Shown: positions 4,454 to 50,352 of the stretch, piece by piece
Numbering within the stretch: position 1 is the stretch's first letter
Layout of the letters: every line of letters begins with the position of its first letter
Source of the DNA: Telopea speciosissima
Taxonomy: Eukaryota; Streptophyta; Magnoliopsida; Proteales; Proteaceae
Assembly (NCBI RefSeq): GCF_018873765.1
Contig: NC_057918.1
Span: forward strand, 11,974,862-12,038,861
Direction: 5' to 3'
DNA: 64,000 nucleotides
The notes under the pieces: model-generated
The model's database searches: none
What the model saw: the letters and a program-made list of their open reading frames with translations, nothing else
Told to the model about the DNA's origin: nothing
Position numbers and translations under genes: made by a program

Positions 4454-5266
4454 ATGGATAACCACTCTCTCAAAAGCTGGTCAGGTCATGAAATGGTAAC
4501 TTATGAAGAAGACCCATTCATGTTTTTAGATCAACTATCCCCATCAGATCTCAGGTAAGATAAGATTCTTTCCTCCTCATGATGATTATTACACTTCTCT
4601 ACTTCTTTCTTTCTTTTTAATTAATTGACTCTCTGTTTCTTCTTAATTTCTTTGAAGTGGGTATTATACTCCAATGAGTTGGCAATGGGAATTCCCCATT
4701 ACATACAACATGTTTGATGTAATTCCTTGGATTGAAAGCAGTTTCCTTACTGACCCTCTGTTGGATGGCTTCCTTACTTATCCAGGTGCTCCTCATGTAA
4801 TCCCATCTCTTGAGATTGTTTTTTCAATTTTCAAAATGGTTTATTTGATCTTTCTTCTCATGGGTTTACAGAGGAACTCTTCATTGGATATGGAAATAGT
4901 TGTGGAGTCTGTGATGAACCCAGCATTAAATATGAGTCCCATGAAGAGATTGTGTCCTACAAAAGTAGTAGAGAAGATGGGGAGGAGCTAATGAAAGAGA
5001 AATCTAAGAAGTTCAAGAAATGCAGAGAAGAGAAGAAGAGTAAAAGCAGTCCAAATGAGTTGACTCGGAATGCCATATCTCGCTACTTCTACATGCCAAT
5101 CACTCAAGCTGCAAAAGAGCTAAACGTTGGCTTGACACAATTGAAGAAAAGGTGTAGAGAGCTGGGAATCGGTAGATGGCCTCACAGGAAGTTGATGAGC
5201 TTGCAGACCCTCATCAATAACATTCAGGTATATATGATTTGATGTCCTTTTTCTGTTTTGTTCTTA

Positions 5267-7862: not shown

Positions 7863-9196
7863 AAGTCTTGCACTCGGATTTGCTCTTGTAGTGGAGGTAG
7901 ACAGATCCATGCGAGGATTTTTCCGAGATGGGAACCAATCTGATTGTACCCGGCTCAATGAAATGCCCAATCCAGATACCATTGCTTGGAACGTTTTTTT
8001 TTTTTTTTGATGGAAGAACAAAAGATACATTACTAAAGCAAAGGTAGATATACAATATTTTTGGATTGAGCATACTTAGCAAGGTTCATGGCTATAGCTA
8101 TACAAAAAGGGTCTCCTTGCTTATCAAACATTATTTCTTGGGCCATGCCAGAGATATACACTAAATCCTTAATACAATACCAGGGACAAGAAGATTTAGT
8201 TGGAGATGGAAGAATATCAATGATGTGTGGATTGGAGCACCATACTTTTTAACCTTCAACCCCATGCTAGCAGCATGGTCTAAGCCTGATCGAATACCAA
8301 AAATTTCAAGTCCCATATCATTAGTAGTACTTATATAACCTGCAGCAAGAAAGGTGAATTTGTCATCTTTCAAAAAGATATAGGACCATCTTGCCTGACT
8401 TAGTCCAAGTATGTTGTATCCTGCATAGATCAAAACAGTAAAATTGAGCACAGGTAAGGAAAAAGAAGTAGGTACTAAGAAATTCTCCACATTACTAACA
8501 ATTACATCCTGGGATGAAATTGAAGGGGGGGGGGATAATTTTAAATCCACCAACCATTTGCATATATGTTTCATAATCCAAATTGGATCAGGCTTTCCTG
8601 ACCCATTGACAACTTTGTTTCTAGTTGTCCAAATAAAGAAGCAAGTAATAATAAAAACACTGAAAAACTAGGTTAACGTTTATTTATCTAGATGATGATT
8701 AAAGTAAAGTGCTAGGTAGAAATCTATCAGGCTTTCATAGGCCAAGAATTCGGTTCTCAGGCTCAGAGGTCCAGCCATCCATATATGTTTAACCCAATCA
8801 CAAGACAAGAACAAATGCCAAGAAGATTCGATACAATTTCCACATAAAGCACATGAAGAGTCGATCTGAAGCCATTTTGAGAGAGTAGCCCTAATTGGAA
8901 GTCCTGCATTTAACAAACACCAGAAAAAGAGTTTAAATTTTGGATGAATTTTGAGTTTCAAAAAGAAATTCCACCACAATTTAATAAACAAATTATTAAT
9001 ATCACAATTAGGAGTGATTTCTCTAGCAGTCAGTTTAGTTATCCATGTTAGTTGCAGAAGTAAGAGAAGTAACTGGAGAGACGGAAAAAAAAGAGAGATT
9101 ACCGGATAGATAAGGGAAGAAAAAAGTGGAATTACCATGCTTGGAACGTTTGGATTCCCTGCTATAAGCCTATAACCGTTAGGATTCATAATTTGA
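7863..9196 (+). pseudogene. PPR protein pseudogene, 5' part (split by a LINE)
   Basis: Plus-strand translation gives PPR text. From 7863 it reads KSCTRICSCSGGRQIHARIF, then, after a one-base slip near 7918-7922, RDGNQSD, then EMPNPDTIAWNV across 7960-7996. This order is typical of a PLS-class PPR protein of the kind I recall for At3g47530. Several repeats between the first and last of these blocks are missing, so an internal deletion is likely. The coding text is cut at 7993 by a LINE and resumes at 9133 with the duplicated target (ACCATGCTTGGAACG, then TTTGGATTCCCTGCTAT), running on until the Mutator-like element near 9180-9196. The other side is at 18160-18456. The gene would have encoded an organelle RNA-binding protein. 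It is dead. Confidence 0.75.
7994..9132 (-). mobile_element. 5'-truncated L1-type LINE
   Basis: Minus-strand element with a poly-A tail (T run at 7994-8008 on plus) and target-site duplications at 7977-7993 and 9133-9148, reading TACCATTGCTTGGAACG and TACCATGCTTGGAACG (one-base difference). Reading from 9132 downward, the frame at 8680-9189 encodes the zinc-binding domain that follows reverse transcriptase in plant LINEs (CALCGNCIESSWHLFLSCDW, with a leading KLFFWCLLN). The frame at 8161-8574 encodes a decayed RNase-H-like domain. Reverse transcriptase and endonuclease are absent, so the copy is truncated to about 1.14 kb, as is usual for LINE insertions. It sits inside the PPR coding text. 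Confidence 0.9.
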
Positions 9197-9765
9197 GATC
9201 CTCTAGACCTGCCATCGTCCTACGGTAAGAGTGACACGTGGTTTTATTCCGATCCAACAGTCAAGTTATAAATCAATTAAAAAAAAAGAGAATTTGGTTC
9301 GTTCTCAGCCGACCGGTCGGCTTCTATTAGGAACCCGAGCGATGGAACCGTGAAAAGCAACAGCGTCTTCTTCCTCTGCTCACTTCTGCAACCTCTCGTC
9401 TTCTTTCCCTCGTCTGCAACCTCTCGTCACCTCTGCAATCTGCAAATCGTCGCTGGAGCATTTGCCCTAAGAAAGAAATATTGTGTGCAACGTCTCGTCT
9501 TCTTCCTCTTTTTATCTCAATGTAAGTATTTCAAACCCTAAATAAGTCATTTTGTTGATGAGAATAAAGAGAAAATGAGATTTTTTTTGGGGTATTCCGG
9601 TTCTATCTCTCTCTGTTTGTGTGTGTGTGTGTGTGTGTGGTAGTTCCCTGAATTTGTTAATGTTTGTTGATGTATTCTGTTTCTTAAGGTGAAAAAAAAA
9701 AATCCAAGTCTGATGGGGTATGTTGTTCATGACTTGCTGCAAGATTAAATATGTGTGTGTGTTTG
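9180..9765 (+). repeat. Left terminal inverted repeat of MULE
   Basis: Matches the reverse complement of about 17520-18163. Shared landmarks in order are GATCCTCTA, GCCATCGTCCT, AGAGTGACAC, a CCGACYGGTCGG palindrome, blocks of CTTCTTCCTC / CAACCTCTCGTC, GCAATCTGCAAATCGTC, TTTGCCCTAAGAAAGAAA, AAACCCTAAATAAG and TTCATGAYTTGCTGCAAGA. A GT-rich microsatellite lies in the inner part. A good 5' splice site (GTAAGT at 9522) suggests the transposase transcript starts inside this TIR and is spliced to an acceptor near 10755, giving a noncoding first exon. Confidence 0.85.
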
Positions 9766-10825
9766 GGTAAGGGGAGAAAGGAAAGTACTTATGGTTTCTC
9801 AGGTTCTGTCATGGTTACTCTTTCTCATACTCTGAGGTGCTTTAGACTTGAGTTTTCATTCTCTCGGTAAGGGTTCAGTTAACATAATGTGGCCTCTTTC
9901 AAATATCTTTTCTACTCTAGGAGGAGAAAGATAAAGAAAGAACAATATGGTTTTTCCGGTTGTACATTATTACTCTTTCTTACTCTTTGAGTGCTATTTT
10001 TGTTCCTTTTCTGAGTCGTCGAGGGTTTAATTTGCCTTCTTATGTAATGAATCAGGCTTTGATTTCACTGGTTTCTACAGTTTTTAAATGTAGCACACTA
10101 TTCCTGACTGTGAGATATGGTTTCTTATGTAAATTGCTGAATCCTTCATTATCCATGTTAACAATAATATGGTTTTCTTTCTCAAACAAGGTATCGGGAC
10201 TGTACTACATAAGACTTCCAATTTATCCTTTTGAGATGACTGCAGCTCAAGTAATTTTTGATGACCCCCTTATCCTTTTAACACTTTCGACCTTCCTCTT
10301 CTCCTAATGGTTATGATGGGGTTCAAAGTCACCGTAAGATTATGAAACCAGATTTTTATAAACTCAATTAAAAAGAAAATAGGGTTTTGTAGAATTTGAC
10401 TTCAAGTAGGAAACTGAAACTTGATGAGAAGATAGGATTTTGAAACAGAGTTTGAAATCAGAACTTCAAACCAGATCACATAATAGTAGACTAAAGAAGA
10501 AAACAGAGCAATATCTAACAGAAGAACATTAATTATTTATCTGTTGTATAGATCAAACTTGTATAACAATTTGCATTAGTCTTTGTGGCTGGTATAAGGT
10601 GTTGGCTGCTTATTTATGCTAAATTTTGCCCTAAGTACAAATCTTCTATTGCTATTAATTATGACCACCAATTTGTGTTCTAATTTCTTCCACTTGTGGA
10701 AGAGTTATTCTTATGAATTTACATGGTTTTATATTTATTTACTCTTGTTGTACAGGTGTATGGTCTGCAGTAGGTTGTTGCCACCATAGAGTTCCTGAAT
10801 TTGAAAGAGTATCTGAGACATAACA

Positions 10826-12967
10826 TTGGATATGGACAATCCAATGACTTCGCCGGTTGAAGCCAGTGGTCAAGATGATTATGTTAATTATAAGCCTCGG
10901 ATCGGCATGACGTTCATATCGGAGATTGATGCATATGATTTTTACAATCGGTATGGAGGAATAGTTGGTTTTAGTATTAGAAGAGATTATGGACATAGGT
11001 TAAAGGAAGATAGGACAATCATAAAACAAAGGAGATTTGTATGTTGTAAACAAGGACATCGAAAAAAGGACAAGAGATATGTTAACACGACCATGCCTCG
11101 TGCGGAAACCAGAACCGATTGTCCTGCAAGAATGGGAATTTCTAGATTGGCTAATGGACAGTACGAATGCCGTGATTTTTTTGATGATCATAATCATTTA
11201 CTTCATACACCAGCTACTAGTCCTTTGATGCGGTCTCAGCGTACTATAGGTTTGGCTAATGATACCGGTAGCAGGCCCAATACCACTTTTGGTTTAATGG
11301 GTATGCAAGCAGGGGGAAGTGAAAACCTCGGTTACACCAAGGGAGATCTTAGGAATTATCTTCGAACTAAACGTCAGCGTGGTTTAGCCTATGGTGAAGC
11401 TGGTAGTTTGTTAGCATATTTTGAAAACCAAGCAAGGCTGAACCCATCTTTTACATACTCTTTGCAGTTGGATAATGAAGAACAGATAACAAATATATTT
11501 TGGGCAGATCCTAGGATGATCATTGATTATTCAATTTTTGGTGATGTTGTTATCTTTGACACTACATTTTGCACAAACAAAGAGTACAGGCCGTTTGGTG
11601 TTTTTTCGGGATTCAACCATCATAGAGGTGTAATCATATTTGGAGCAGCCCTTCTATATGATGAGACGACTGAATCTTTCAAATGGTTGTTTGAGACATT
11701 CTTGGAGGTTCATGGGCAAAAGAATCCCATTACCATTTTTACTGATCAAGATGTTGCAATGGCAAAGGCAATAGTTGAGGTATTACCTAAGACATGGCAT
11801 GGATTGTGTATCTGGCATATAATGCAAAATGGGATAAAACATCATGGTAATCTGATGAAGAATGGGTCACCTTTTCTTAAGGATTTGAATAAATGCATAT
11901 TTCATTATCAAGATGTAGAGGAATTTGAGAATGCTTGGAAAAAATTGCATGATGAATACCAACTTGAGAATACATCATGGTTAGACCAGATTTATGAAAT
12001 TAAAGAGAAATGGGCACGATGTTATATGAAATACACTTTCACATTAGGTGTGAGGAGCACACAACTAAGTGAAAGTATTAACAGTGATTTGAAAAAGTAT
12101 TTAAGATCCAGTTTAGATCTTGTGCAATTTTTTAAGTATTTTGAACGGGTTGTGGAAGATAAACGTACCAATGAATTGAAGGCTGAGTTTGAAGCAAGAA
12201 ATACGTTTCTTGAGAGCATGAGTTCCAAAAACTTTGTATTGAGACAAGCAGGAAAAGTTTACACCCCTTATATATTTAAACAATTTCTAGAGGAGTATGA
12301 ATGGATGGCTGCTTGTGTCATAAAATCTCGTAAGGGGGATGATATCTTCTGTGAGTATGTGGTTGGATTGGTTGATGAGGAAATGAACTTTGTGGAAGGG
12401 GAATATGTGGTCTTGTATAAGCCATCTGAGCATTTGATAGAATGTAGTTGCAAAAAATTTGAGACATTTGGCATCCTTTGTTGTCATGCTTTGAAAGTCA
12501 TTGATGTACTAGATTTGAAGTGTATTCCTGATAAGTATATTTTAAGGAGATGGACACGGACAGCAAGAAACATTGTGGTGGAGGACAGTAAAGGTAAACA
12601 AGTTGTTGAAGATGTTCATTTGAATTGCACACATCGTTTTAGGTTTCTTGGTCATATATTTCTTGAGCTAGCAATCCAAGCATCTAACTCAGAAACTGGT
12701 TTTGAGATGGCCAAAAGTTGTGCCTATGTTATGGGTCAACAACTTGCAGCATTGGATCTTGATAGTCCCAATACAGAAGCTTCAGTTAACTGTTTTGATG
12801 TCAACACTGAATTAGTGCTCAAAAAGAAAAAAGTTTGGAAAGGTGAATTTGTGAAAAGCCTCATTTATGGTTCATTTTTTTATGTTAATTTTTCTGTGTA
12901 TGGAGGCTTTAACCATTCTTTGTATCCATTGATGCAGAGTGGAACTTTTGGTGAGGCTGAGACATAA
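10826..12967 (+). CDS. MULE transposase, FAR1/FHY3-like
   Basis: A single open frame of 713 residues with all parts of a FAR1-type transposase. The N-terminal FAR1/WRKY-GCM1-like zinc-binding region (about 30-130) has C73/C74, C99, C115 and H122-N-H124. The DDE core has D245 (IFDTTF), D307 (IFTDQD), the C328-x2-H331 insert (CIWHIMQN) and E416 (TQLSESIN). The SWIM zinc finger (538-556) has C540-x-C542 and C552-x-H554. This enzyme family binds TIRs and cuts and pastes Mutator-like elements. FHY3 and FAR1, light-signalling transcription factors, are domesticated relatives. A possible intron near 12842-12936 (GTGAAT...GATGCAG) would change only the extreme C-terminus. Because the ORF lies between matching TIRs, I call it a transposase rather than a host FRS gene. 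Confidence 0.9.
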   Translation: MDMDNPMTSPVEASGQDDYVNYKPRIGMTFISEIDAYDFYNRYGGIVGFSIRRDYGHRLKEDRTIIKQRRFVCCKQGHRKKDKRYVNTTMPRAETRTDCPARMGISRLANGQYECRDFFDDHNHLLHTPATSPLMRSQRTIGLANDTGSRPNTTFGLMGMQAGGSENLGYTKGDLRNYLRTKRQRGLAYGEAGSLLAYFENQARLNPSFTYSLQLDNEEQITNIFWADPRMIIDYSIFGDVVIFDTTFCTNKEYRPFGVFSGFNHHRGVIIFGAALLYDETTESFKWLFETFLEVHGQKNPITIFTDQDVAMAKAIVEVLPKTWHGLCIWHIMQNGIKHHGNLMKNGSPFLKDLNKCIFHYQDVEEFENAWKKLHDEYQLENTSWLDQIYEIKEKWARCYMKYTFTLGVRSTQLSESINSDLKKYLRSSLDLVQFFKYFERVVEDKRTNELKAEFEARNTFLESMSSKNFVLRQAGKVYTPYIFKQFLEEYEWMAACVIKSRKGDDIFCEYVVGLVDEEMNFVEGEYVVLYKPSEHLIECSCKKFETFGILCCHALKVIDVLDLKCIPDKYILRRWTRTARNIVVEDSKGKQVVEDVHLNCTHRFRFLGHIFLELAIQASNSETGFEMAKSCAYVMGQQLAALDLDSPNTEASVNCFDVNTELVLKKKKVWKGEFVKSLIYGSFFYVNFSVYGGFNHSLYPLMQSGTFGEAET

Positions 12968-15900
12968 GAAGCATAAAAGAGTCCAAGCAAGAATTCAGCA
13001 GCAAGGATCCTGCAAGAATTCAGCATCGATTATATTGAATGCCTTTGAGAGTGGTGGTTGAATCGGATATAGCTCTCTAAGTTTGAAAGAAAGTGAAACT
13101 AAACTTGTAGACATCAGCAATTCACACCTCGTATTAATCCTTCTGGTTGAAATTTTATTCATCAATTCACAATCCCAGTGTGTGTGTCTGTGTTTCATAA
13201 AACTGTTGAGCATCTTAATGTTGGAGTGGTTTCATTTTCCATATTGTATTAACGATGACTTCTTTATCTTAGTATTAGTTTTTCCATTTGAAATGTTTAA
13301 TTGTTAAGGGAGAAGTTATATATCAATTAATGAGGTTATTGAAGGTATCTGATTGATTTGTTTGTTTTTGACATACTGATATTCTTAATTCATGTTAACG
13401 CATAATCTGAACATTGAGGTTCCTATAATGGGATATTCTCACTTCAACATGTGGCTAACCACTATGGAGACTGAATCGTCTGTATACCACATGTGTAAGG
13501 ACAGAATACGATAGGGCTATGGGCAAGTAACTCTTATTTGGGTGACTAATAGTTCGCCACTAAGAATATGGACTGATCATTTATATGATCATAATTTATA
13601 AATTTCTCTTTTATGAGAATTTTTCATTTTGTGAGATAGTTATTGATTATATTATAGTCCATGATACAAAAAAAAAAAGTTGATTGCTTAGAGGGCTATA
13701 TTATACATTGTGGTTGCTTTTGGTATAGAAAGTTTATGATATGACGTTTTTCATTTATGACTCAAGTCAATTGTGCTGTACTTAGAACATGTACGCTTTA
13801 TGATCAAGTATTTGCTCAAACAGAGAAGAAACATACAGATATGCTTTTGATACAATTTTCGCCAAATTCTGTGTTTATAATTTCAGTCCACCATAATCAG
13901 ACATGTTGTTATAAGTTCCTCAACCCTGTGGCAACATCATTGCTACTGTAATGCACACTCTGCTCAGAGACCATATAACTGTACTTTAATATGATCAATT
14001 AAACATTATCAGAACACACGTATTTCACCTGTGAATGAGACAAGAAACTGATGCAAGTCATAAGCATCAAAGTGTCAAACCCAGCATAAACAATCGGCAC
14101 TCCTGGGTCAGTCTGACAAGAGGATTGGCATAATTAGATGTTAAACTACAAATAATTTACACAGCTAAAACAATAGTAAATCTGGGCAAGGATTCAAAGA
14201 TCAGTATTGCAGGACAAACAGTTCATAACTGTATGTCTGTAACCAATCCAGATTGTTCTGGATCCTTCCAGTCCAATAAGGATACGGATTGGATAAATAT
14301 GAATAATCCATACCAATATTTTAAACCATGAATCTGAAAGAAAGAACGAAAATAATTAATAAAGACATCATCTTCAAATCGAGGCCACTACTCCCAATGG
14401 CATCTACAATTTCAATTTTTATACCATTTATATCAATTGGTAGCTTTGAGCCAGGGCGCCTTACTCCAACAAATTTCCCCTCTTGATCATATAGAAATAT
14501 TGACTGAAGATCCCAAGCTAGCATTGATCTGGATTTTTTTGTGGCATGGGGGATTATGGAGGGAGACACAAAACAAAAGACTGAAAATACAACGTTGACA
14601 GTTGGAGGATCAAATAACCGGGGATTTTTTCTTTTAACCTCACAAGATTATGCCAACTCCAACAAATGAACAAACCATCCACACCATGTCCCACTGACTC
14701 AGTTTGGAGGAGCAAATAACCCTGTTAATCCCGATTCCAAAGTGGCTGGAAACTATCATGGTAAATTTGAAAATCTATAGAGCAGAATCATCTCCACTCC
14801 ATGATGAACACCAATTTCTCACCCTAACAATGTAAATCAAAACAATACAGATAATCCTGCTGCTTGGATTTTCAAGGCTGCAATCCTTCATGTACACAAC
14901 TAATCATCATCACCACTACTTGAATAATTAAGTCATTAGAATCCAAGAAAAAAATTCCTACACGTTAGAATCCGCTCTAGTTATGCAAAAGTGATACAAA
15001 AAATTACAGAAACAACTAATCCACAACACCACTACTTGAATAATTAAGTCATTAGACCAAGCAAAAATTCTCACACATTATAATCCGCTCTAGTTAATCG
15101 AAAATGATACAAAAAAGATCAGAACATCTACTAGAACTTAATGTTTCAAACTTCCGTACTAGACTACACTTTAATCTCGAAACAAAAGGTAAATAATAGC
15201 AACAGACACAATAATACGCCATACGATAACGAGGTTTCTAATATCAAACACTAGATAGTGTTGACAGTTGTCTCTATGTGTTTGATATTGAGTTGCATGA
15301 TTAGGGCCAATATCACGAACATGATCATGAATAGTAGGGGATGATGAAGATTCATCGGCCTTGTGGTTGCTCACCCACATGAAGGAATTTGGATGATCAT
15401 AATTTGCAGGGCATTGTTAAAATCATCGACTGTAATTACGTTCAGTATGTGCGTGCTTCAACACCATCTCACCTTGTCCACATGGACACATAGGTAATGA
15501 AGTGTTCATTGTCCTGCAATATTAAGAAAGTTGGATTAGAGATTTTAAAAGTAGTCAAGAATTTGTTATAAATCAAGCAAAGTAAGAAGAGAAAAATCAG
15601 CAACATGATAAGATTTGAATAGATTGCCTGAGAATCCAAGATGTTAAATTAAAGCTGAAATAATTTTAAAATTTAAGCCCCCACTAGCCTAGCTCTCGGC
15701 TAAGAGGCCCAGCCCAATTAGAGGGCCAGCAAGCTCCTCTGGCCTAGTTCTCAGCTAGGAGGCCCAGCCCAATTCGTGGGCTTATTCCAGCCCATCTATG
15801 GGCTTATTAGTTTAGCTACTTAAGTTTTATTTTGAGTTTTTTAATTTGATTTATTAAGTGTCCTAGTTAAGCTATGTTCTTTTAAGTAGACTAGGATATA

Positions 15901-17040
15901 ACCTGAGTTCTATTTTATGTGTTTCATATTCTGTTTTGTGATTCAGGTACTGGTTTTTCTATCAATCGATTACTATCTCTGACCTTAGATCTAATTTCTG
16001 ATTTTGTTTAGTTTTATTTCTCTGATCTAATTGCTATTGTTGGTGATCAATCCTTGTTATTATCAACTCCATTAACCACTGTTTCCAGAACTTGCGGTTC
16101 CCCTATTTTGGAACCAGTTTTCAACCTAAAACTTTGGTAATTGCAAGCTGATCTACTGGTCAGATTGAGCCTATCTTTTGGGGTTTTCAAGTGATACCTT
16201 GGAGGAGAACTCGACCCAAGTTTTGGGCCATTCCCATATCCTAGGAGAAGAACTCGACCTAGGAGGATTTTGACTGGGAGGTTATTCTCTCAATCCCCCA
16301 CAAATAACATAGAATTCTAGTGTCTTCTCAGCTGAGTAAAAGATGTTTCCAAAAGAACTTGAATTGTTAAGAAGCAGCTGGTATTAAAAAATGTTTGTTG
16401 CTTACTAAAACAATTACAGAAGCACATGATTTTGCCTGGTATCTGTTGCTCCTATGAAATTCTACTAGAAGAACATCATTCTTTATTTGGCTTTACTTCA
16501 CCCAGTTTATTTTTGAGCAAGTTCTGTCTTCACACTCTAGCACTGTTTTATTTCACTAATTAGCCTTATTAGATTTCATTTACTTTATGTTAGAGATCTT
16601 CCCATATTTCACTTCAGCTTACTTGGAATGCAAGAAGCCAAGTAATTATAATGAATATAAAGTTGCCTGATCTCATCCTGGTGGCTGGACATAATTTGGG
16701 AAATACTAGTCTTTCTATTATTTTCAGAACTATTAGGCTAGGGGTAGACTCAGTGGGTTGAGATCCTCAGTTCTGCTGTCCACTGTATCATCAATTCCTG
16801 TTTCTTCCACAGCGTAGCCACTGTATCATCAACTCCTTCTGTACATGACTGTGATCAAAGAGAATCTATTTTTGGTTCACTAACATCGTAATCATAATTA
16901 GTATCTCCTTCCTTGTCTACTGGTGCATCTTCTTTCTGTTGTATGTTAATATCTTTATTCAAGAAATCTTGTTCACACGTGTTGGGAAGAATTATTTCTG
17001 TTTACTAATGGAGAAATGTTCAATGAGCTAATGAAAATAT
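12968..17040. other. MULE internal region without recognised gene
   Basis: About 4 kb between the transposase and the right-end repeats. Only short open frames occur and none shows a domain. Visible structure: a 116-bp tandem duplication with units at 14911-15026 and 15027-15130 (both starting CACCACTACTTGAATAATTA), and at 15640-16310 a stretch with doubled phrases (CTCGGCTAAGAGGCCCAGCCC / CTCAGCTAGGAGGCCCAGCCC; GGAGGAGAACTCGACCCAAG / AGGAGAAGAACTCGACCTAG) that resembles a decayed LTR. No conserved second MULE gene was seen. Confidence 0.5.
14911..15130. repeat. Tandem duplication, 116-bp period
   Basis: Two units, each beginning CACCACTACTTGAATAATTA and containing AATCCGCTCTAGTTA and TGATACAAAAAA. 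They differ by small substitutions and indels. Confidence 0.8.
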
Positions 17041-17519
17041 AATTTTGGTTTTTTAATCACCAAATTCACTTAGAAAAAATTTCCCCCCTAAGAAACAGAA
17101 TCCATCATCATGAAGCAGTCGAATATGCACCCCATATTGTGAACTACCACACACACACACGCACAGAGAGAGAGAGAGAAGCAAAGACACATGTGTGCAA
17201 AAATAGAAACCATCAACAAACATTAACACTAAAGAAACCAAACCCGAAGGAAGGTAGGGGGTACTGTAAGCATTGAGATGGGGTGGACGAAAGATTTTTC
17301 GGAGACAAAATTAGAGAAAGCCAAAACAACCCAAGTGTTAGAAAAGCAACACCCAATTCCACCACAAATGACCAAAGGAGCAATCGTTGTCTCTTCCTCT
17401 CCCATCTCTGCTAAAACCCATTAAAAGCAAACAGTTGAAAGTAATCCAGTGATCATGAACCAGCTATGTACAAAAAGAATCCAAAAGTTAAGAAACAGAA
17501 TCCATCAACATACATTAAC

Positions 17520-17650
17520 ACACACATATATTTAATCTTGCAGCAAATCATGAACAATATACCCATCAGACTCAGAATTTTTTTTTTCACCCTAAGAAAC
17601 AGAATCCATCTACAAACATTGACAAATTTAGGGAATTACCACACACACAA

Positions 17651-17687
<37 letters not shown>

Positions 17688-18163
17688 CGGAATACAAAAA
17701 AAATCTCTCATTTGCTCTTTATTCTCATCAACAAAATGCCTTATTTAGGGTTTGAAATACTTACATTGAGATAAAAAAGAGGAAGAAGACGAGAGGTTGC
17801 ACACGACGTTTCTTTCTTAGGGCAAATGCCTCCAGCGACGATTAGGGAAGACGATTTGCAGATTGCAGAGGTGAGAGGAAGAAGACGAGAGGTTGCAGAG
17901 GTGAGGAGATGAAGAAGAGGAGAGGAAGAAGACGCTGTTGCTTCCAGGGTTCCATCTCTCGGGGTCCTAAGAACCTAGGTTATTTTTTTGTTTTGAAACC
18001 CAAGCCGACCAGTCGGTTTTGGTCTATTGTGGCCAGATTTTCCTCACTTTTGAATTAATTTGAAATTTGACCGTTGAATCGGGATAAGGCCAAGTGTCAC
18101 TCTCACCGACCTGGGCAGGACGATGGCAAGTCTCTTTTTGGCAGTAGAGGATCTGAATCCTAA
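17520..18163 (-). repeat. Right terminal inverted repeat of MULE
   Basis: Reverse complement of the left TIR, with small insertions such as the extra GAGGAAGAAGACGAGAGG-like purine blocks at about 17860-17935 and a long (AG)n at 17652-17686. The inner phrase AAGAAACAGAATCCATC, which marks the TIR interior, occurs three times here (about 17090, 17490 and 17593) against one to two in the left TIR, so the right side grew by local duplication. The mirrored splice donor (ACTTAC at about 17757) is also present, so a minus-strand transcript could start here. Confidence 0.85.
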
Positions 18164-21305: not shown

Positions 21306-23649
21306 CATAGTTCAAAATCTCGCGATATTTCGCCGAAATATCGCTTAATTTCGTATATCTCGAGCTTACCGAGATGCAAAATCAGGTCGAAATGAAAAAA
21401 TATCATATTTTGTCACGAGATATCGACGAAATATGGTATTTTGGCTTAAAGTGTCACGTGAAGGGGGGCTTTAATACAATATTTTGCAGATTTCGGTCCA
21501 TATTTTGACCGAGAGCTACATTTGCTAAGGAATTTCAGTCTTTTGCCTATTCTTCCACTCTTCCAAGCTCTCATCCAACACTTTAGCTATTGTTCAAGCA
21601 CATTGTTGTCGGATTTTCGCCGGTAAACTCATCGGAGAGTCATCTAAGTTCATCATCCAAGCATTTTTCCACTATTTAAGGTAAATTCTATTTCTCTAAA
21701 ACTATTTTTTTGAAAAGACTATGTACAAATTTTGTTGGATGGTGATGATATTAATATATGTTAGACACCGGAAGCCGATCTATAGTCTCATGGTGTCGAA
21801 TTTTTTTTTTTCCATATGTATTTTTTTTTTAATTTTCTAGTTTTAAAAATTCATTTTCCTACAATTAAAATAGGAAATAATTAGGGGTAATATGACTTAG
21901 ATGGTAATGAATTAAATATATGTTAGACACCAATGGCCGATCTACGGTTTCACGGTGTCGGATTTATTTTTCTGCTCTTAAATAATTATTTTAATTTTAA
22001 GAAATTAAGAAAAATATATAAATAAATAAAAAAAATAGAAATAAATAAGGAAAAATATGAGTTTTAAGTTTAAAAATAATGAAAAAATATGAAAGTTATT
22101 TCTATATGTTTTGAAATGCATTACATGTATATTATGTTTACTAATTTTTGGTTTTGTTTAGGTCAATACTTATATTAACATTATATTTAAAAAATTGGTT
22201 TTAATTATGTGAAAAATATAAGGGTTAGGGAAAAAATATTAAATAACTATACAAGTGTATTAGTAATCTAAAAGTGTCAATTGAAGTGTATCTATATTAG
22301 TTTTTTAATTATTTGTGTTACTTACATTGCAGTAAACAAGTATCATTATGGCGGATCGTGATAGACAACGTGCGAAGGGCAAGCAAAAGGTGGGGGAAAG
22401 TAGTCAACAAAGGGGGCGGAGGGAACAAAGAGAACAGAGGGAACAAGAGAGAGCTGCCAGCCAGCATAGGGGTGACATTGCATGGTTACATAGCACTCCC
22501 ATTGATGGGGATAAGAGAAAATCTATATGTAACTATTGTCACATGCAATTTATGGGAGGTGGGTCCAGTAGACTTAAACAACATCTGACTGGAGGATCTA
22601 AAGATGTTGTAGGTTGTCATATGGTCCCTACTGAAATAGCCTGGGAGATTGGTGATAGTTTGAGGGGAAAGAAGAAGAGGAAGGCTGACAAGCAAAGGAT
22701 AAGAGAACAACTTGAGGATATAGTGAGGAGTTCGATGGGAGGAGGAAGACAATACAATGATGATGATGATGATGATGACTCCTCTGATGATGATGAGGAC
22801 ATTGCAGTACCTGATATGCAACCAATGCCATCGCCTCTTGCGCCGGCGTCAACATCATATCACAATGGATCATCTTTTTCACGGACTGGATCGATTGGTA
22901 ACCCTAGCTTATATCCTAGGATAGGTTACCTACAGTATGTTGATGATTCCATTTACGTGACACTTGTGGATGACTACACTCGTTTCTTCTCCGATTCTAT
23001 ACCGTAGTCCACATATGTCCTTCAAACAAAGAGCAATGGGCGTCGACTCCAGCGAGGCATGAGTGGGATTGATCCAGGGAGGCACAACAACTACTATTAG
23101 TAGTTTAGCACTTGTAATTTGTAACTTAAGTTGTGATTTCATTGATCTATAAACTTGTGACTTGTGACTTGTGAGTTGCGAGTCTTGTGACTTACTAACT
23201 TTGACACTTAGTATATTGCCTTTAAGGCTTTAAGCGAGTTATTGAATATTATGGAGTTTATGAGAATCATGGTACTCATCAATGTGTATTGGCTTTAACT
23301 TGATATGTGATGAAGTTAAATACTATTATTAAATATTAACTGCCTAATCTATGTGTATTTAACTATTTATACATTAGGGTCGGCGACCGTATGTCAATCA
23401 AGGGTGCAAGCCCAAAACACCAATTTGAATTCACATTTTTACAATTTTATGGTTTAAATGTGTTTATTAAGCTTAAATAAGGCTGTCCATGAAGTTTCAG
23501 GCCTAGATATGGCCAAATACCCCCCGAGATAGACCCCCGAAATATTGCAGAAAATATGTAATATTTCGGTCATATTTCGCGATATTTTGGGTATCTCGGA
23601 TATCTCGGTAGGCCCGAGATACCGAGATATCGCAAAATATTAAACCTTG
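21306..23649 (+). mobile_element. hAT element, internally deleted
   Basis: A 2344-bp element flanked by a perfect 8-bp duplication GTTTTGGG (21298-21305 and 23650-23657), as hAT elements make. The ends are imperfect inverted repeats: CATAGTTCAAAATCTCGCGATAT at the left (21306-21328) pairs with the right end, read inward as CAAGGTTTAATATTTTGCGATAT. Subterminal regions are packed with short CGATATTTCG / GATATCTCGG words. Inside is a BED-finger ORF without the catalytic core, so the copy looks non-autonomous. Two related segments at about 21762-21800 and 21922-21962 (ACACCGGAAGCCGATCTA / ACACCAATGGCCGATCTA) form an old internal duplication. Confidence 0.9.
22348..23007 (+). CDS. hAT-type BED zinc-finger protein, transposase core missing
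   Basis: An open frame of 219 residues (ATG at 22348). A basic, Q/R/E-rich N-terminus (1-45) precedes a BED finger (about 48-95) with C57-x2-C60-type ligands (ICNYCHMQF) and the block RLKQHLTGG...GCHMVP. Next come a KKKRK basic patch and a run of Asp/Ser encoded by GAT repeats (about 138-152). The C-terminus (GYLQYVDDSIYVTLVDDY) looks like a transposase tail. hAT transposases normally have about 600-700 residues with a long RNase-H-like catalytic core and a C-terminal dimerisation domain. Here the core is absent, which fits an internal deletion joining the two ends. It could still bind DNA, but that is inference. Confidence 0.7.
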   Translation: MADRDRQRAKGKQKVGESSQQRGRREQREQREQERAASQHRGDIAWLHSTPIDGDKRKSICNYCHMQFMGGGSSRLKQHLTGGSKDVVGCHMVPTEIAWEIGDSLRGKKKRKADKQRIREQLEDIVRSSMGGGRQYNDDDDDDDSSDDDEDIAVPDMQPMPSPLAPASTSYHNGSSFSRTGSIGNPSLYPRIGYLQYVDDSIYVTLVDDYTRFFSDSIP

Positions 23650-23777: not shown

Positions 23778-27495
<3,718 letters not shown>

Positions 27496-29069
27496 TTTTC
27501 TCAATGGATTGGTGAGATACTTCAAATACTGAAACTGGAACACTGAGTGATATGAAGTTATTGTTGTTATTGTTGATCAGTTAAGACCTCTTAGACAGTA
27601 TTTATTTTTGGGGGGAGGTGGGGTAGAGAGAGAAATGGGATGTTCCAGCACTTTCACTGGCAGATGGTTAGATTGTTCTTCACTGTTTTCTGTTTCGTTC
27701 ATGAAGGATCTAGATTCTCATGTGGTTCTCATGGTTGACACACACAAAGAGTCATTCCAGTCTCATGGAAAAGACGAGTATATGTCGTACATGAAAACCA
27801 AGGGGGTGGGGGGGAGGGATATCCTCATTCCTCCAATGAGTCCACCAACCATACACGTGGACAACTATGGATGGTTAAATTGGATTTTCTGATTAGGGAT
27901 AAATTTCAAAACATGTCTTAATGTGCTCCTACATTACATGGTTGAAGATTTTTTATGAGCTGATCCAGTTTTAGCTTCTATTGTCTCAATTATTTGTGGT
28001 TGGTAATATGGAAATTTGGCAATTCCCTTCATTTAATTATATGGTTGGCTTGTGGGTCCCTAAGAATATTGGTTTATAGACTAATAAGCAGGTGGGGACC
28101 GGCCCAAAACTTGGATGAGTCTGTTTTTTTGGGGGGAAATTTTCATAGTGAAGCTGCTTCTAACCACTTCGATAAATTTTGCATTCATAAGACTCCCAAG
28201 TGGGTGGTGGGAACTCCTTGAGAGCGACTCTGAGATTGTCAATTAGTCATTTGGAGAAGTGTAAACAAATTGAGAAAAATGCCTAACGACACGTGAAGGG
28301 CATGAATTGGGAGTGGAGAGATAGAAGTTTCAAGATCATTATCGAAACCAATGTGATTTGAATTATATAGATCTACTAGGGCTATGGGGCTATGGATTAA
28401 AATGGCATGTTAGAAGATATAGAGGTATTGTTCCCCATTTCTTCTTGTAGGTCATCTCTATCTAATAGCAATCTAATAGCTTAAGATTTTGGGTTGAACT
28501 CTCTAATATGGTATCAAAGTCTGTGGTTTGTTGGTTTTTCTCTCGTGTGTCTATCCACGTGTACATTTTACATCTCATTCCACCTACACATGACAGGATG
28601 TTAGGAATTATAGAGTTATAATCCGACATTGGTCTGTTCAGGTCCTTAGTGCCATCATATTCTAGTGTAGCTCTCTCAACCTAATAACCTTAGGCTTTTA
28701 ATTGAACCCTCCAACATTTAGGAGTTATAGAGATACAGTCTCACATCAATTATCTGATAGCAAGTAGGAGAGAGAAACATGAAACAGAGAAGTATGAAAC
28801 CCAGCAGTTGAATACTTCAATCTAGATACAACGAAGAGTCTATCCACCCTCGAATTTACTGAATATTTTTCGGGCAAGTTTTGTTTATACCCTAACTTCA
28901 ACCTCATCAATAGGGGTGGCAGTATGATGATGACCCAAGAGTCCAATCACAAGGTCAATCACCTGTGAAGAAGAAATTCTTCCTTCTCCATGGGTCTCTA
29001 TGGGTTTAGGAAAACTTTCGCCAATTTATGAGCCAACTGTTCTTTTCAGAGTAGGATATACTATTGGGT

Positions 29070-36303: not shown

Positions 36304-39171
36304 GTACATTTCAGAACCATTTTTGTTTGCATTTCTGATCTTTAATGTCCCCTCTTTCCTTGTTTTCTAGTTCAAATTCATAAAATTTTAGTGCTCTGTT
36401 TTCTCTAATTCCCTTCTTTCTGGTTTGCTTGAGACATTTTTAATGTTTTCCTTCCTCACTGAATTTTAATGTGAGTGTGTCCGATCAGTTAGTGAACTGT
36501 AATGGTTGGTTGGTTGCTTACTTGATTTTGAGCGGGTGGCTTTTCGTTGCTTTTAATGAGACGGAGTTAAGTTCTAGAGAGTACGGAAATAGAAATTTTC
36601 AGGTAATTTTATGGATTGCTCGGCTTGGTTACGCTTCCCTCTCTTCCCAACCTTTTTTTAAACTTTTTGTTGCATGGTTAATTTTTTTTTTATTATGGTT
36701 ACGAAGTTATTTTTTGGCCACTCTTTGGAGTTTCTGATGGTTTGTTTGCGGAATGGGGGAATTCTTATGGATTCTGTAAGACTGCGAAATTGTGGGACTT
36801 GATCAAGTAAAGCTTAATTATCCTGTTCGAAAGTCAGATGAGGTGCAGTTTGTGCGTTGAGATCTCACAACTTTTAGTTTTGTAAATTAAAGTTCTCTGG
36901 GTTTAGGGTTTTATAAGTCTTTTGATGGCCGCTGGAGCAATATTGTCTGTACCTCTTTTGAAGACTCTAGAAAAGAAGACGGAACTTCATTCTCTGCTTT
37001 AATTATCTTTATATAAAAAAATTTATATCTTATTCAATACTTCTGGTGCAAGCAGAAACATTGTTCTCTTGCTATATTTGGACAATCTAGACTATAGAGT
37101 ATCTACTCGTTAAGAGTTAGCTGTGGATTGTCAACATCTCGTATAAGTTAACAATCTGTCTGGAACTCCTTCCTCTTCTCTCCCTGGGATCAATTTTGTG
37201 CTCCTGGACTTCCAACCCACCAACCCAGAAAACAAAAACAATTCCATTTGAAAATTAATTACTTCGACTGTTTCCAATTATTTCTTGGAGAAACTGGTGT
37301 TGAAAACTTGAAAACTTATTAGGAATCTCGAGACGTGAAATTCCCAAGTTCTTGAGCTACTAAATTATGCACTTCGAAGGAAGAATGAATGCTGGATGTG
37401 CAAAGATTCCATTTAAAAGCTGTCTTAAACAAAGTTCAAAGGATTCGAACCACATTATTAGTCCTTCCTTTACTCTAGAATAAGGGCTATATGAAGAATT
37501 TCTGTATTGGATAGGCTTCATTGTTGATTGTAAATGGGGAGGATTTCAGATCCATCACCCTGTCCGTTGTCTCCCCTGGGGCTGAAGGGTAGTCAAATTA
37601 CTTGAAGACTTGAAAAGCTGTTGCATTCAGCTTAAGCACAGCCAATGGAAGGTTTTAGGGATGAAAAGTTTTGAAAGTCAGTACCCTATTCTTCTCTTTT
37701 TATTAGGGGGGCAGATACAAATGCAATGAAAGCACCTTCTTATTGATGGTTGCTCTGAAGGCCATCTTTACTTACTACCCCAGTTTTCTCTTTTTTTGTT
37801 TTAGCAGTCTAGATTCTATAAATTAATTTCCACCTCCATGAAAAGTCCATTTGACTTGGTTGATTGGACATTTAAAAAATACAGTACTACAGTTAAGGGA
37901 TAGTAGAGATCATCATAGAAATTCAATAAACTGGTTACGAAAAGAGGAAAAGGGAAAATGGAAAACATTTGACCACCAAACTTGGTTGAATTTGAGCTCT
38001 AATTTCTAAATCAAAAGGCTGTACCTCTCTAACTTGTGACTTGGGTGCAAGCGAGCAGCTGGGGAACCAAATTCACTAGGGACTTTTGCAAGATTGTTTT
38101 GTTGGTAATATCTCCAACAGGCCAGCCCAACTTTTCCTTCACCAAGGAACTAGTAAATGGTGTATGGAGAGAATCTGCATTAAGGGATTTGATATTTGTA
38201 GAGTTTAGCTATATGTACTATACTCTTATTCATTGCTCATAAATAAATTTTCTGTTATTGGTAATTAGGGGAAAAAAAAACCTGTACCTTTGATGTTTTG
38301 GACTTTGCAAACGATTTTCTGTATCCTGATCATTGATTGAGAATTTCTTCTTACCTGGATATTTCTCCTTGCTTTGAAACTTGTTGTTTAGTTTCTCTTT
38401 TTTGGGTCGCCCTCAAAGAATTTGATTATTTACTAAAGGTTTTAGAGGCTGCATGCTGAGTTCTTGTAACTAAGTCTTGGACGTCCTTTTTCCTTAACAA
38501 TACTTATGGATATTAACATGCTACAATAATGCCACTTTTTTTACGTCGGTGCTTTCATGGGTGGTTAAATTTTTTGTCTGGAGATTCTTCTTTCTTATGT
38601 TCTGCCTTTGGCATTTTTATGTTTATTTGTGGGATCTTCTGACAGAAACTCTTATTACAGGTTTTACTGTCCAATTATTATATTTATTTGGTGGAGGCTG
38701 ATTAAATTAGCTCCTCATGTTCCAAAAGGAAGTCCTTTCTTTTAATGCTTCATGATGATATGCTTTGGTAGGTCTGTTATTATGAGACCAGATGAAGGAT
38801 TTTAAATCTTGGGCCTACTGGAAGCGGTTCAGTGATTGTTGTCCACTTGCAAGATGGTTTGATGGGTCAAACAGAGACTGATGGATTGGAGATCTACAAT
38901 AGTTCAGAACATCAAAGAAGTTGAATAATCCTTTGCAAATCATGTGCTGATGTACCACTAGAGCATAATTATTTCTCGCCTTCTGTTTTCTTCTTAATTT
39001 TCTCCCTATGCATCTATGCATTTATGATCCTGCTTTGGAAAATGATATTCTGGAGACTGGAAGACATGCATGTGCCCCAAGATACTATATGATGCACTTT
39101 TAGTACTAGATTAGTTTGTTGGGAACTTTGAATTCAGATTGATTTTGGAGGTGTAAGTGGGAACAGAAAAA
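36304..39171 (+). other. Probable 5'UTR intron region of GALT1
   Basis: No coding region is recognised between the purine/pyrimidine-rich leader (36060-36303) and the GALT1 ATG. A leader intron is inferred from the donor at 36304 and the lack of any nearer promoter signal. A cDNA would settle it. Confidence 0.35.
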
Positions 39172-42040
39172 ATGAAGAAGTGGTCTGGAGGTGTTCTAAT
39201 TGCATCCTTGTTTGGGTTGCTCATTCTGAGGTATGGTGTGATGAAAAATCCCCTTGGGGAAAGTTTACTTTCCAATCCGTTCTCTACCAATAAATCTAAT
39301 CCACTTGAATGGGTGCGTGGGGTCCCACCTGCCGTTCAAAATCCAGAGAATGCCTCCCAAGTAGTTTCTGCTGCTAGATTGGCTGCCGGTCTCTTTCCTT
39401 GGAGAAACTTTTCCAGTGAAGAGCAAAGATGTTTGCAGACATGGAACCATTTGAATCACTTAATCAATTATACTGAAGGTTTACCTAATGCAATGGGTGC
39501 TGTCAAAGAAGCTGCAATGGCATGGGATAGCCTTATGGCTTCCTCTGAAGAGGAAGGACTTGGTTCCATGAATGAAAGTTCACATCCAAAGACAAAAGAG
39601 AAACAGTGCCCTTATTTTTTGAACATAATGAATGCCACAGAACCTGGTGATAGTGGTTATAAATTACAGATTCCTTGTGGCCTGATTCAGGGTTCTTCCA
39701 TTACGATTATTGGCACTCCCAATGGCCTTCTTGGAAATTTCCAGATCGACTTAACTGGGGCACCACTTCCGGGGGAGCCAGAGCCTCCCAGAGTATTGCA
39801 TTACAATGTTCGCCTTCATGGTGATAAAATAACTGAGGATCCTGTGATAGTTCAGAATACATGGACTGTAGCTCATGACTGGGGTGAAGAAGAGCGGTGT
39901 CCTTCTCCTGTTCCCAACAATAATAAGAAAGGTATATGCTCCTCTACGTTCGTTTTTCATTTTTCATTTTCTATTTCTCACTTTTCTTGTCTCATTTCTT
40001 CATTTTTATTCTTCATTTCTCTTTGTGAGGTCCTCAGTTTTCCATACTTTGTCTTGAAAGGATCCATGTAGCCGACCCCATTTAGTTGGGATAAGGCTGA
40101 GTTGTTGTTGTTGTATATGCTCCTCTGCATGTGCTTCGGTTTTGGAGTTTTGTAACGCATTGTTATGGTCTACTATTTATGATTTGCTTTACCACGTAAG
40201 TTTGTTGCTTAATACTTCATCTTCATTCTAGCCCATAATAAGGATTGAGTATTATTTTTCCCCTTTCAGCCCAACAACCTTATCTGGTTTTTCCCTTATT
40301 AGTGGATCCAAGAGTCAAAGACTACCTGATGGCCTCCATTTGGATTGCTCTGAAATTGCTGAGTTGGTCCAAAACTCATGATACATTGATACCTGGTTAC
40401 TTGTGCTTGTTTCATTTGCTACTGATACCAACCCTAGTTGTAGATACAGTGTGTCATGGTTTCAATGATCAGCGTAGAATTGTTCAGATAGTTCGCTCCA
40501 GAACAATCCGATCTGGGATGGTAGTGGATTGCCGATCTAAATCATCTTAATAATTTTTTGACTGGATGATCTGGATCTCGCCATCTAGATTGGTATTGCC
40601 CAGGAGTGATTTGAACTATGATACCAGTCTTTCAAACCTTGGTGTGTTTACTGGCAATTCTCTCTTTTTTTATTGGAATAGAGCATTCACACTTATTTTT
40701 CAATTCCTGTTGATTTCTTATTAACTTTATCAACATAATGCTTATAACTATTTTCTTCAAATAGGAATAGGTTCAAGTGCTGAGAAAATCCATGAATGCT
40801 TATTAGTTAAAAGAAGATATGACAGTATAGAGTAGGGTGGTGGAACATGATTCATGCAGCTGAACCTATTTAGCGGGGATAAGGTTTAGTTCTGTTGAAC
40901 TGAGTCTTTTGCTAAGAGATATCTGTAACAAATACTCAAATATTAAAATTTCCATGAATGTCAGTATTTGGGCTGTATACGTGTCAAATGCGGAGAAGAT
41001 ATAGGTCTATCCATATTCCATATTCAAGTCTGTTTGAATATTCAAACTTGTTTTGCTTAATTGAACTAAAATTTCACCTATGACGGTAGTAATACCCATA
41101 TATTCCTTTGGATGTCAAGAAATAGGACATCAAGCCCTAGTGCCCTGCTACAATATCCATTTTCTATTTTATTTATATTTTAAAATAAACTATTTTGTTA
41201 TAATCTGTTTTCTTCAGTCTATCTTTTGTAAGAGGAGGAAATTTTTTCAATGCAATATATGCTGTTGTTTGTGCTCTAAAAGTTGGGAATTCAAATTTTG
41301 CTCTGATATTTTTGAATTTTAAATTGATATAAGAAGCATCTGGCTTTAATTTCTGTTGTGCAGCCCATGTTCATGACCAGAAAATTTTTTGAACTTGCAT
41401 CTACAGTAGTCAGTTACAGATTCATAATCTTGATCCTTTTTTTCCCCTTTTGTGTGAGTGTTATATTTGGGTTGTGTTAAAACCATCCTGCTTTTGGTTG
41501 TGCTTTACAATATTTACCTCTTGTAACAGTAGTCAGTTACAGATTCATAATCTTGATCCTTTTTTTCCCCTTTTGTGTGAGTGTTATATTTGGGTTGTGT
41601 TAAAACCATCCTGCTTTTGGTTGTGCTTTACAATATTTACCTCTTGTACTGGTGGTGTTATTATTTTTGCAATGCTACAGTAACGTGTAATACTACATAT
41701 CTCTCGTTATATATATATATATATATATATATACATTCATGTAGGAAACTATTTTCTATGTGCCCTGATTCATCTAATGTGTTAAACGATGTGGAAGTCT
41801 TTCTGTGGTGTTTGCCAGTCTTTCTTATAGCCTTTTTTGGTACTCGTATTGTATTGTTGGTCTTTTAGTAATAAAGCTCCTGGCACACACACAGTTGTTT
41901 CACAGTGAAGTATGTTTTCAGGTTATCCGTTCCAAAAGGAGAGGGGGGGGGGGAGTAAAAAGTACTCATATAGTAACAAATGTTGATTTGGTGCTGTCAA
42001 TTTTTGACTGTCCTATATTCTTTCTTGGATCCTATTAATC

Positions 42041-45897: not shown

Positions 45898-46050
45898 AAA
45901 GTTCTCTATCCGGGAGTGTGGTCTATGCCAGCACTCCCATGAGTCTATCTCTCTCCTCTTCATGTGAAAAGACATCTCTGCCCCCTTGTTTTAAGGAGGA
46001 GAGAGATAGACATATGGGAGTGCTGGCGTAGGCCACTCTCCCGTACAGAA
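45898..46050. mobile_element. Foldback MITE
   Basis: Arms 45898-45960 and about 45990-46050 pair closely: GTCTATGCCAGCACTCCCAT with ATGGGAGTGCTGGCGTAGGC, TCTATCTCTCTCCTC with GAGGAGAGAGATAGA, and outer AGTTCTCTATCCGGGAG with CTCCCGTACAGAAAACT (diverged). The loop is a GACATCTCTGCCCCCTTG word. A half copy is at 2743-2880. Confidence 0.8.
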
Positions 46051-46609
46051 AACTGCTTCCCTTATTTTTCAGATCTATGAAATAAAAATTACCTGCGGTT
46101 TGTACTAGATTTGTCCTATCTACAGCCTTTGGTGTAACCCTAGTTTCATAAACCTAACCAAATTATTTTTTATATGAAAGGGGATTACTGGTTAAATACC
46201 AAGAAGGGACTTCAAACCAGAAATGATGAAAAAATGAAAAGAGAATCCGAAGCAATGAAACTGAATCCAAGAAGTATCTGTAATCCTCAACAATCGAAAT
46301 AAATAAACGTGACAAGAGTCTGGCATGATCCATGACATTCAAAAAAATTGGCACTGGTTGTCGAGAGCCTACTAGCAAGGAGAATCAACAAGGCAGTGGC
46401 CTACATTTTATTATTGTAATGTATCAACTTATATTACATATTTTTATCACTTGTGGTTCCCCTGCTCGGTAATAAAAGGGGGGTGGACCCCACTTGGGCA
46501 GTGTGTTCGGTCAGGTAATAGAATGATCATTTCAGCCTCTCTATGAGAGGAACCATACAATCGTACCGATCAGCGAACCTCAGGGGATACAGGTCCATTA
46601 TATTACTTG

Positions 46610-46855: not shown

Positions 46856-47509
46856 TCAGGCGGCCATGCACCCTATGCCAAAACGAGAGTTGGGGAAGAC
46901 GAGAAAGAGGCCACTGCATATGATACCCACCATTAATGGGAAACTCTCCATCACCTCGTCCATCTCCTTCACATGACCTGGGAACAGACAATCCGTTACC
47001 CGGTGATCTGAGAACGCTATGGCAACAAAAACCATCACCGACATTACGGCATGCACGAAATCAGTCAGTCCAACTTTGTAGCGCTCGTCCTTTGGCACTT
47101 CCACCCCAAGATCCGACTTAAACACCGATAGCCCTTTTGGAGTTACGAATCCGTAATATACCTTACCGTCAGATCCTCTGAAACTGTCGGTGAAGTGGAA
47201 GAAGAAACAAGAGAAAGCGCATAATCCCATCATGACATTGATCATGGTTGTCTTCACAGGAGAGCAAATTCCGTCACCGGACACTGAAGGTAATAGCATC
47301 TCGAATGTCAGTAACGTTCCTGTAGGAAGGAAATTCACAAGCATTGATGTCTTTGATAGTGTCTTCTGCACTCCCTTCGCCACTGCACGGCGTTTACGTC
47401 CCTTTTCCGGTGGCGCCGCTGCCTGTGGCGACACTGGATATGAAGTCGCCTCATCGTTGGGTGTAGCATTATAGATTTTGATTCCGACATCTTCAATTGC
47501 TTCCTCCAT
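46856..47509 (-). CDS. DMP (DUF679) membrane protein
   Basis: A single exon of 217 residues. DUF679 membrane proteins (DMPs) are plant-specific small proteins with four membrane spans, placed in ER, tonoplast or plasma membrane. Different members act in membrane remodelling during senescence or in gamete fusion. Here a hydrophilic N-terminus (1-48, with KGRKRRAVAKG) is followed by family hallmarks: LVNFLPTGTLLTFEMLLPS (about 58-76), GLCAFSCFFFHFTDSFRGSDG (about 95-116), VGLTDFVHAVMSVMVFVAIA (about 146-165) and a last span near 190-205 before a FGIGC tail. Which DMP subtype it is cannot be decided here. It lies 304 bp downstream of CHLP on the same strand. A TATAAA on the minus strand (47616-47611) sits about 100 bp before the ATG. 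Confidence 0.9.
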   Translation of the reverse strand: MEEAIEDVGIKIYNATPNDEATSYPVSPQAAAPPEKGRKRRAVAKGVQKTLSKTSMLVNFLPTGTLLTFEMLLPSVSGDGICSPVKTTMINVMMGLCAFSCFFFHFTDSFRGSDGKVYYGFVTPKGLSVFKSDLGVEVPKDERYKVGLTDFVHAVMSVMVFVAIAFSDHRVTDCLFPGHVKEMDEVMESFPLMVGIICSGLFLVFPNSRFGIGCMAA

Positions 47510-47610
47510 TTTCCGGCCAATCTATTGACAAGAAGGTTAAGAAAACAGAGAGAGACAGGAATTGGAGTGGTGGACTAGAAAAGGAGTTTGTTCGTTGCTT
47601 ACTGTTAAAA

Positions 47611-47616
47611 TTTATA
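47611..47616 (-). promoter_or_regulatory. Putative TATA box of DMP gene
   Basis: TATAAA on the minus strand, about 100 bp upstream of the start codon at 47509 and within the 304-bp gap to CHLP. Confidence 0.45.
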
Positions 47617-47813
47617 GCAGGTTGGTTGATTACTGTTTTAAATTTGAATTCTGGAAACCTTAACGGAAATTAACTGCCATCCATCCATAACTGTGGAGGT
47701 TTTGGGGGTTGCATCGGTTCACAAATCATAATACAGTAGCAATTACATATTACATAAATATATATATATAAAAGAAAGAACCAAATCGCAAAATCCAGCT
47801 TATCGGGAAAATC

Positions 47814-49274: not shown

Positions 49275-50352
49275 TTTCCCGGTACCTGAATTTTCAGGCG
49301 AGGAGTGCTCTTGCCCTTTTTTGTTATCACCAACACAGTGTGGATATGATATCTGATATTTCGAGCTACTGGCCGTTCGATTTTGGGAAATCGATGGTTG
49401 TTGTTTGTCATGGATAATGCGATAAGATTTCTTCCCTCCCCACACCCTTATGTTCTCAATTATGTCCCCGTGGGTGACTCACCCGATTAACCTGATAAGC
49501 AGAAAAAGTATCTACATATATTCCTCTAAAATAATGCTATCCTTTTTTCTTTTTTTCGCACTTCGATATAATAAAGTGAGCTACCTAGATCACCAAAGGG
49601 GTTATCCTATTACTGTCCTTCCGGAATTCCGGTATTTATGTCTTCTCCGTTTTTAAGTGTCTGCTATTGAGCCACGTAGTCCCTTTCAGCCAGGGGTACG
49701 CATTTCTAAATTATTTAGACAATTTATCACTTAAGCAAGGGAGTGGCGAATGTATTCATGCCACGTGTTTTTTAACTAAACATTTCTTCTAACCATATGA
49801 TTAGTTGGACACTTGGACCCCACCAGATCCGTTGGTCACATCAGATCAGATCAGTCGCGGATGATTGGAACTGAGTGTGATCAAAAGGTTATGAATCATA
49901 TCATAGATGGGTCCCACTCCAACTGAGGTTCTAGATTTCCATCCCCCCTGGGTATAGATATATTAGGTCACTCTCTGCCATGACAAATTGGCAATTCGGA
50001 TTTCATACTTCACCATAAAAGAAGAAGTTAAGAGGTTGTTGCAGGTAGGTTTTGAATTTGCAACGGTTGGTTGCTTGGTGCATCCAACCCCTCTACTCTC
50101 TCTCTCTCTCTCTCTCCTTCTCCAATGTAATAGTAAACCCACAATTGGCCAACTGTCTCCATTTTCTTCTTGTTTTGTTCTTAACAAACCCATGCATATA
50201 TGGGCTTTACTACAAGCTACCTCCTTATGTTTTAAATCCCACCATCAATTACAGTTCTTCATCTCAAGAGATCAAACCACAACACAAGCTTCTTTACTTT
50301 GCTAATTGAGATTCTTATCTAGCTAGAAATCACAGAAATTGATTCAGCAGAA
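49275..50352. promoter_or_regulatory. Shared upstream region of CHLP and the GDSL gene
   Basis: A divergent intergenic region of about 1.1 kb. A CACGTG core (GCCACGTGTTTT, near 49760) is a possible G-box for light response of CHLP. No strong TATA box was seen for either side. A (CT)n tract at 50095-50116 lies in the GDSL leader. Confidence 0.4.

Follow-up and report, generated by a model that had tools for sequence, protein, structure and literature searches.

Results

The window, that is, the whole 64-kb stretch of DNA that was analyzed, contains at positions 9179 to 18163 a 9.0-kb segment, very probably a copy of a Mutator-like element (MULE), with imperfect inverted arms at both ends and an open transposase frame between them. 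The left terminal inverted repeat (TIR) occupies 9179 to 9763 on the plus strand (585 bp) and the right one 17517 to 18163 on the minus strand (647 bp). Long terminal inverted repeats, which some MULEs lack, were therefore present, and the flanking repeats of about 0.6 kb described in an earlier note on this DNA were recovered with coordinates that had been correct to within a few bases. Local alignment of the left arm with the reverse complement of the right arm gave a score of 618, with 497 of 677 columns matched, 122 gap columns, and 89.5% identity over the aligned bases. Under different gap costs, global alignment matched 495 of 542 aligned bases (91.3%; K2P, 0.093) and contained 23 gap openings and 148 gap columns. 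The earlier note had proposed a comparison of this identity with background; the top score among 291 pairs of random window segments of the same lengths was 58, far below that of the arms. Identity between the arms was patchy, with matches at 132 of 138 aligned bases in 9451 to 9590 and at 74 of 87 in 9231 to 9330. Twelve of the 23 between-arm indels were located in the outer part (9188 to 9353), eight in repeat tracts, and three in clean inner stretches. A hairpin at the right end of the element was unremarkable (z-score, -0.64).

The ends were searched for marks of insertion. Exact target-site duplications of 9, 10, or 11 bp were absent from 180 × 200 end combinations. Two exact 8-mers were detected across the same combinations, compared to 0.55 expected, and both were far from the right end. 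A narrower scan near the ends detected no 8- or 9-mer with at most one mismatch and two 10-mers with two mismatches. As no target-site duplication was found, the exact termini of the element are uncertain. In a grapevine survey, duplications are recorded as having been seen for a subset of MULEs only (PMC2528002), and this, together with the uncertain termini, makes the missing duplication compatible with membership of the MULE class. A search of the 64-kb window for a second copy of the element found none, and matches outside the element were simple repeats only. The left end is adjoined by a minus-strand frame at 8683 to 9219 with a zf-RVT match (E = 1.1e-10), a LINE-type remnant; the frame enters the left arm, while its matched part stays outside. 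The right flank gave a PPR-like match that was below the cut-off (E = 0.015). Because the two flanks are unlike, no single interrupted target was visible.

The transposase open reading frame (ORF) was delimited from the ORF list, Pfam matches, and a check of residues. A single plus-strand frame is open from stop to stop at 10817 to 12967, and the ORF runs from the first ATG at 10832 to the stop at 12967. The earlier description of an open transposase of 713 residues was right as to the open frame; the length from the ATG is 711 amino acids, and a count of 713 starts at a TTG at 10826. Pfam matches to MULE (PF10551; E = 1.8e-24), FAR1 (E = 1e-20), and SWIM (E = 2.9e-5) all exceeded the curated cut-offs. 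With the FAR1 DNA-binding domain N terminal and the SWIM domain C terminal, the protein has the layout of Jittery/FAR1-type MULEs, a likeness in domain order. All seven residues named previously were present (D245, D307, E416, C540, C542, C552, and H554 in the numbering of the earlier note). Together with the PF10551 match, D245, D307, and E416 are the D-D-E residues of a MULE transposase domain, and by analogy with the family they would form the catalytic triad. The arms, the Pfam domains, and these key residues all support the previous naming of the locus, namely, as a Mutator-like element that has long TIRs and whose transposase, of the FAR1 type, is open.

Several further analyses of the transposase were performed. 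The C terminus is less certain: as judged by eye, its final ~40 residues may come from an intron that is read through. Codon usage showed no preference for the ORF frame (r of 0.44 for the true frame versus 0.49 and 0.46 for the other two). A single-sequence structure prediction had a pLDDT of 31.9, too poor for active-site geometry to be judged, and was not used. A PDB sequence search returned one match at the level of chance (E = 0.61). None of 4 pattern matches in the viral_contigs set and none of 23 in the genome_contigs set were confirmed as relatives, as is expected because this is a plant gene.

Both arms contain sequences that may belong to a gene model. A TATAAAT is present in the left arm at 9267 to 9273 (plus strand), and the aligned sequence of the right arm is TTTCAAAT. 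The splice-donor-like 16-mer TCAATGTAAGTATTTC is common to both arms, at 9517 (plus strand) and 17754 (minus strand). Motif positions, with the acceptor read by eye, delimit a candidate 5′ untranslated region (UTR) intron at 9522 to 10755 (plus strand; GTAAGT ... ACAG). With the TCAATGTAAGTATTTC donor and an acceptor at about 10755, the first exon would be untranslated and would lie within the left arm. The occurrence of the same donor-like sequence in both arms suggests that the left arm probably supplies the transposase gene with its promoter and its first exon, including the splice donor and 5′ UTR. According to published work, promoters and binding sites for the transposase are located in the long TIRs of Mutator elements. 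A pattern search detected the 28-bp subterminal motif AAACAGAATCCATCAACAAACATTAACA on the plus strand in the region from 17201 to 17520, with copies at 17201 and 17493, on the inner side of the right arm or at its margin. Each arm had a copy as well, at 17597 for the right arm and, in inverted orientation, at 9655 for the left. When up to three mismatches were allowed, there were four matches versus none in 100 shuffles, the pattern having been composed from these same copies. A binding role for this motif would be a guess.

The interior of the element, 4.5 kb at 12968 to 17516, was examined by a domain scan of ORFs and by repeat searches. MuDR has a second gene driven by its right arm. A similar gene was rejected here, as no Pfam domain scored above the cut-off in the 15 ORFs scanned of 29 in the interior (at least 45 amino acids and wholly within 12968 to 17516). 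The top subthreshold match was to FeS_assembly_P (E = 0.0041; 17.8 bits versus a cut-off of 23.5), and a 108-amino-acid frame at 14324 to 14647 had no PDB match up to an E value of 1. A 113-bp tandem duplication was found at 14896 to 15124. A third copy of the TIR appeared as a candidate at about 17016 to 17316, with local scores of 109 against the right arm and 117 against the left arm, compared to a maximum of 88 in 164 random segments against the right arm. This candidate was rejected after simple repeats were masked: the best scores fell to 53.6 and 52.4, at 17442 to 17516, within the masked null (top scores of 64.0 and 71.4 across 419 segments). Of the internal TIR-like signal, only the copies of the 28-bp motif stand. 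Nested elements were likewise discounted, since the interior contained just two short inverted pairs, of 73% and 78% complementarity.

The CpG observed/expected ratio of the whole window was 0.45, as was that of the ORF; the left arm had a ratio of 0.85, the right arm 0.58, and the interior 0.34. We considered whether CpG depletion marks silencing here and dropped the idea, as the aligned CpGs (12 shared by the arms) differed by only 5 left-only versus 3 right-only sites.

Discussion

Comparison with published elements indicated that the class is already established and that this copy is most likely another member. The plant Jittery group (group 36 of PMC6446971) is described as having an N-terminal FAR1 domain, a C-terminal SWIM (or CCHC) domain, one ORF, and TIR-bounded members, as here, but the TIRs tabulated there for dicots and monocots are 39 to 292 bp or none, compared to 585 and 647 bp. 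Jittery itself is reported to have TIRs and a 9-bp duplication. CitMule of Citrus (PMC4334395), an element of 6.8 to 6.9 kb encoding 795 to 805 amino acids and related to Jittery in the tree of that paper, shares the FAR1, MULE, and SWIM domains and TC stretches at the 5′ end; ESTs of it exist. In the account given there, its ends are short and degenerate (17 bp at 100%, 34 bp at 88%, and 65 bp at 78%), unlike the ~0.6-kb arms, and 9-bp duplications match in three of the five listed elements, whereas none was found here. A MULE inserted in maize ZmTOM1 (PMC5826256), annotated as Far1-related sequence 5, resembles the present element in matching FAR1-related-annotated loci and in having TIRs of more than 100 bp but differs in that these are 130 bp, with 8-bp direct repeats, and in having been discovered as the insertion of a mutant allele; a review also cites it. 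In grapevine, Jitvine-1 and Jitvine-2 (PMC2528002) are likewise Jittery-like and large (11.9 and 14.4 kb), some copies having potentially functional ORFs; unlike the present copy, they are multicopy and have no TIR or duplication recorded in the table of that paper. The statement in the earlier note that autonomous TIR-bounded relatives are rarely seen intact was thus too strong, since the published FAR1-type MULEs include ones that move or carry TIRs. The arms are longer than those tabulated for the plant Jittery group, a comparison drawn from a literature search that was not aimed at TIR length. As TIRs of 710 bp (grapevine Mutavine-7; PMC2528002) and 640 bp (a red-algal group; PMC6446971) are listed for other MULE groups, the length is a difference of degree.

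We consider it highly probable that 9179 to 18163 is one copy of a DNA transposon, a Mutator-like element of the FAR1 (Jittery-like) type bounded by TIRs. Evidence for this reading is the inverted repeat, the presence of FAR1, MULE, and SWIM domains in one frame, the key residues, the 16-mer and 28-bp motif shared by the arms, and the published relatives; against it are the missing duplication, the unlike flanks, arms above the Jittery-group range, and the lack of a second copy in the window. By analogy with the family, the left arm probably drives transcription of a single transposase gene. In the encoded protein, binding to the arms would fall to the FAR1 zinc-finger domain, with assistance from the SWIM finger, and the RNase H-like domain with its D-D-E residues would carry out the cutting and joining of the ends by cut-and-paste chemistry. 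The likeliest state is an older insertion, potentially transposase making, whose ends have eroded or were always unequal.

The main tension within these data is between the open frame and the diverged arms. Had the two arms started out identical, an ORF free of selection should be broken by now: simulated neutral decay to the present arm divergence, with substitutions only, left the ORF stop-free in 66 of 2000 runs, and from the between-arm indels 13 to 27 frameshifts would be expected in the ORF, the lower figure resting on three indels. The open ORF therefore suggests either that the arms were unequal before insertion or that selection has since acted on the ORF. It is no more than a pointer, as the arms were perhaps never identical, and the aligned CpG counts decide neither reading. 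Unequal ends would also suit a recently inserted, currently mobile autonomous element, a form of the transposon reading that we regard as unlikely. The open ORF with its key residues and the near identity of the arms in 9451 to 9590 are in its favor, but the literature has tied young MULEs to highly similar TIRs whose similarity drops with age, and arms of 89.5 to 91.3% identity with 23 gap openings, no 9-bp duplication near the ends, and no second copy in the window gave no support to the suggestion in the earlier note that the element may be recently active.

Selection on the ORF would instead be expected of an FRS-type host gene domesticated in place, with its ORF and left-arm promoter maintained by the host and its ancestral TIRs left to decay. 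The simulations and predicted frameshifts are consistent with this reading if the arms started identical, as is the missing target-site duplication, and genes of the FAR1-MULE-SWIM type are abundant (5,067 of 18,744 models in 80 species). FHY3/FAR1 and other FRS transcription factors have the identical three-domain order but are described as domesticated, with transposase activity lost or most likely lost (PMC6000157 and PMC13306707). Domestication is opposed by the retention of the catalytic residues, by the possibility that MULE arms differ already at insertion, by the concentration of indels in the outer part and repeat tracts, by the absence of a clear one-sided loss of aligned CpGs, and by the description of domesticated grapevine transposons as single copy and without TIRs, since TIR-like arms are present here. 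On balance we judge it unlikely, and its intermediate form, a gene still held open by host selection between decaying ancestral TIRs with the left TIR as its promoter, decidedly so. A non-transposon origin, in which the promoter and first exon of an FRS gene were copied in inverted orientation ~8 kb downstream, would account for the missing duplication, the unlike flanks, and the extent of the arms, which cover what is probably a promoter together with a UTR exon and its splice donor. It appears very improbable, as promoter-bearing long TIRs are described for Mutator elements and the protein family is reported to include transposases of TIR-bounded elements.

If the copy is mobile, it would bring a long-armed member to the group of elements that has the FHY3/FAR1 light-signaling factors among its relatives. 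If host selection keeps the ORF intact between decaying ends, the locus would offer a direct view of a stage of domestication, which the FRS reviews (PMC6000157 and PMC13306707), in their treatment of the subject, describe only as an outcome.

Other features of the window

A scan of the window detected no Rfam family at the gathering score and no tRNA. An ORF with an RWP-RK domain (4814 to 5239, plus strand; E = 1.9e-23) is likely an RKD-type gene near the element, and a BED zinc-finger ORF (22336 to 23004, plus strand; E = 3.8e-6) is possibly a hAT-type transposase remnant or a gene. FtsH-like exons were present on the minus strand at 24174 to 27576, with an FtsH_ext match (E = 3.7e-7) at 26860 to 27576 and the remaining parts recognized by eye. 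An inverted repeat pair at 2736 to 2867 and 45934 to 46065 was 78.8% identical over 132 bp, and the region from 45900 to 46054 is self-palindromic (75%), as expected of a MITE. An exact 123-bp tandem duplication (100% identical) was located at 41403 to 41648. A galactoside-binding lectin domain was found in an ORF at 39157 to 40068 (plus strand; E = 5.9e-14), and at 46859 to 49478 (minus strand) a DUF679 gene (E = 1.2e-63) adjoins a frame of 554 codons in which FAD-binding and geranylgeranyl reductase matches were detected.
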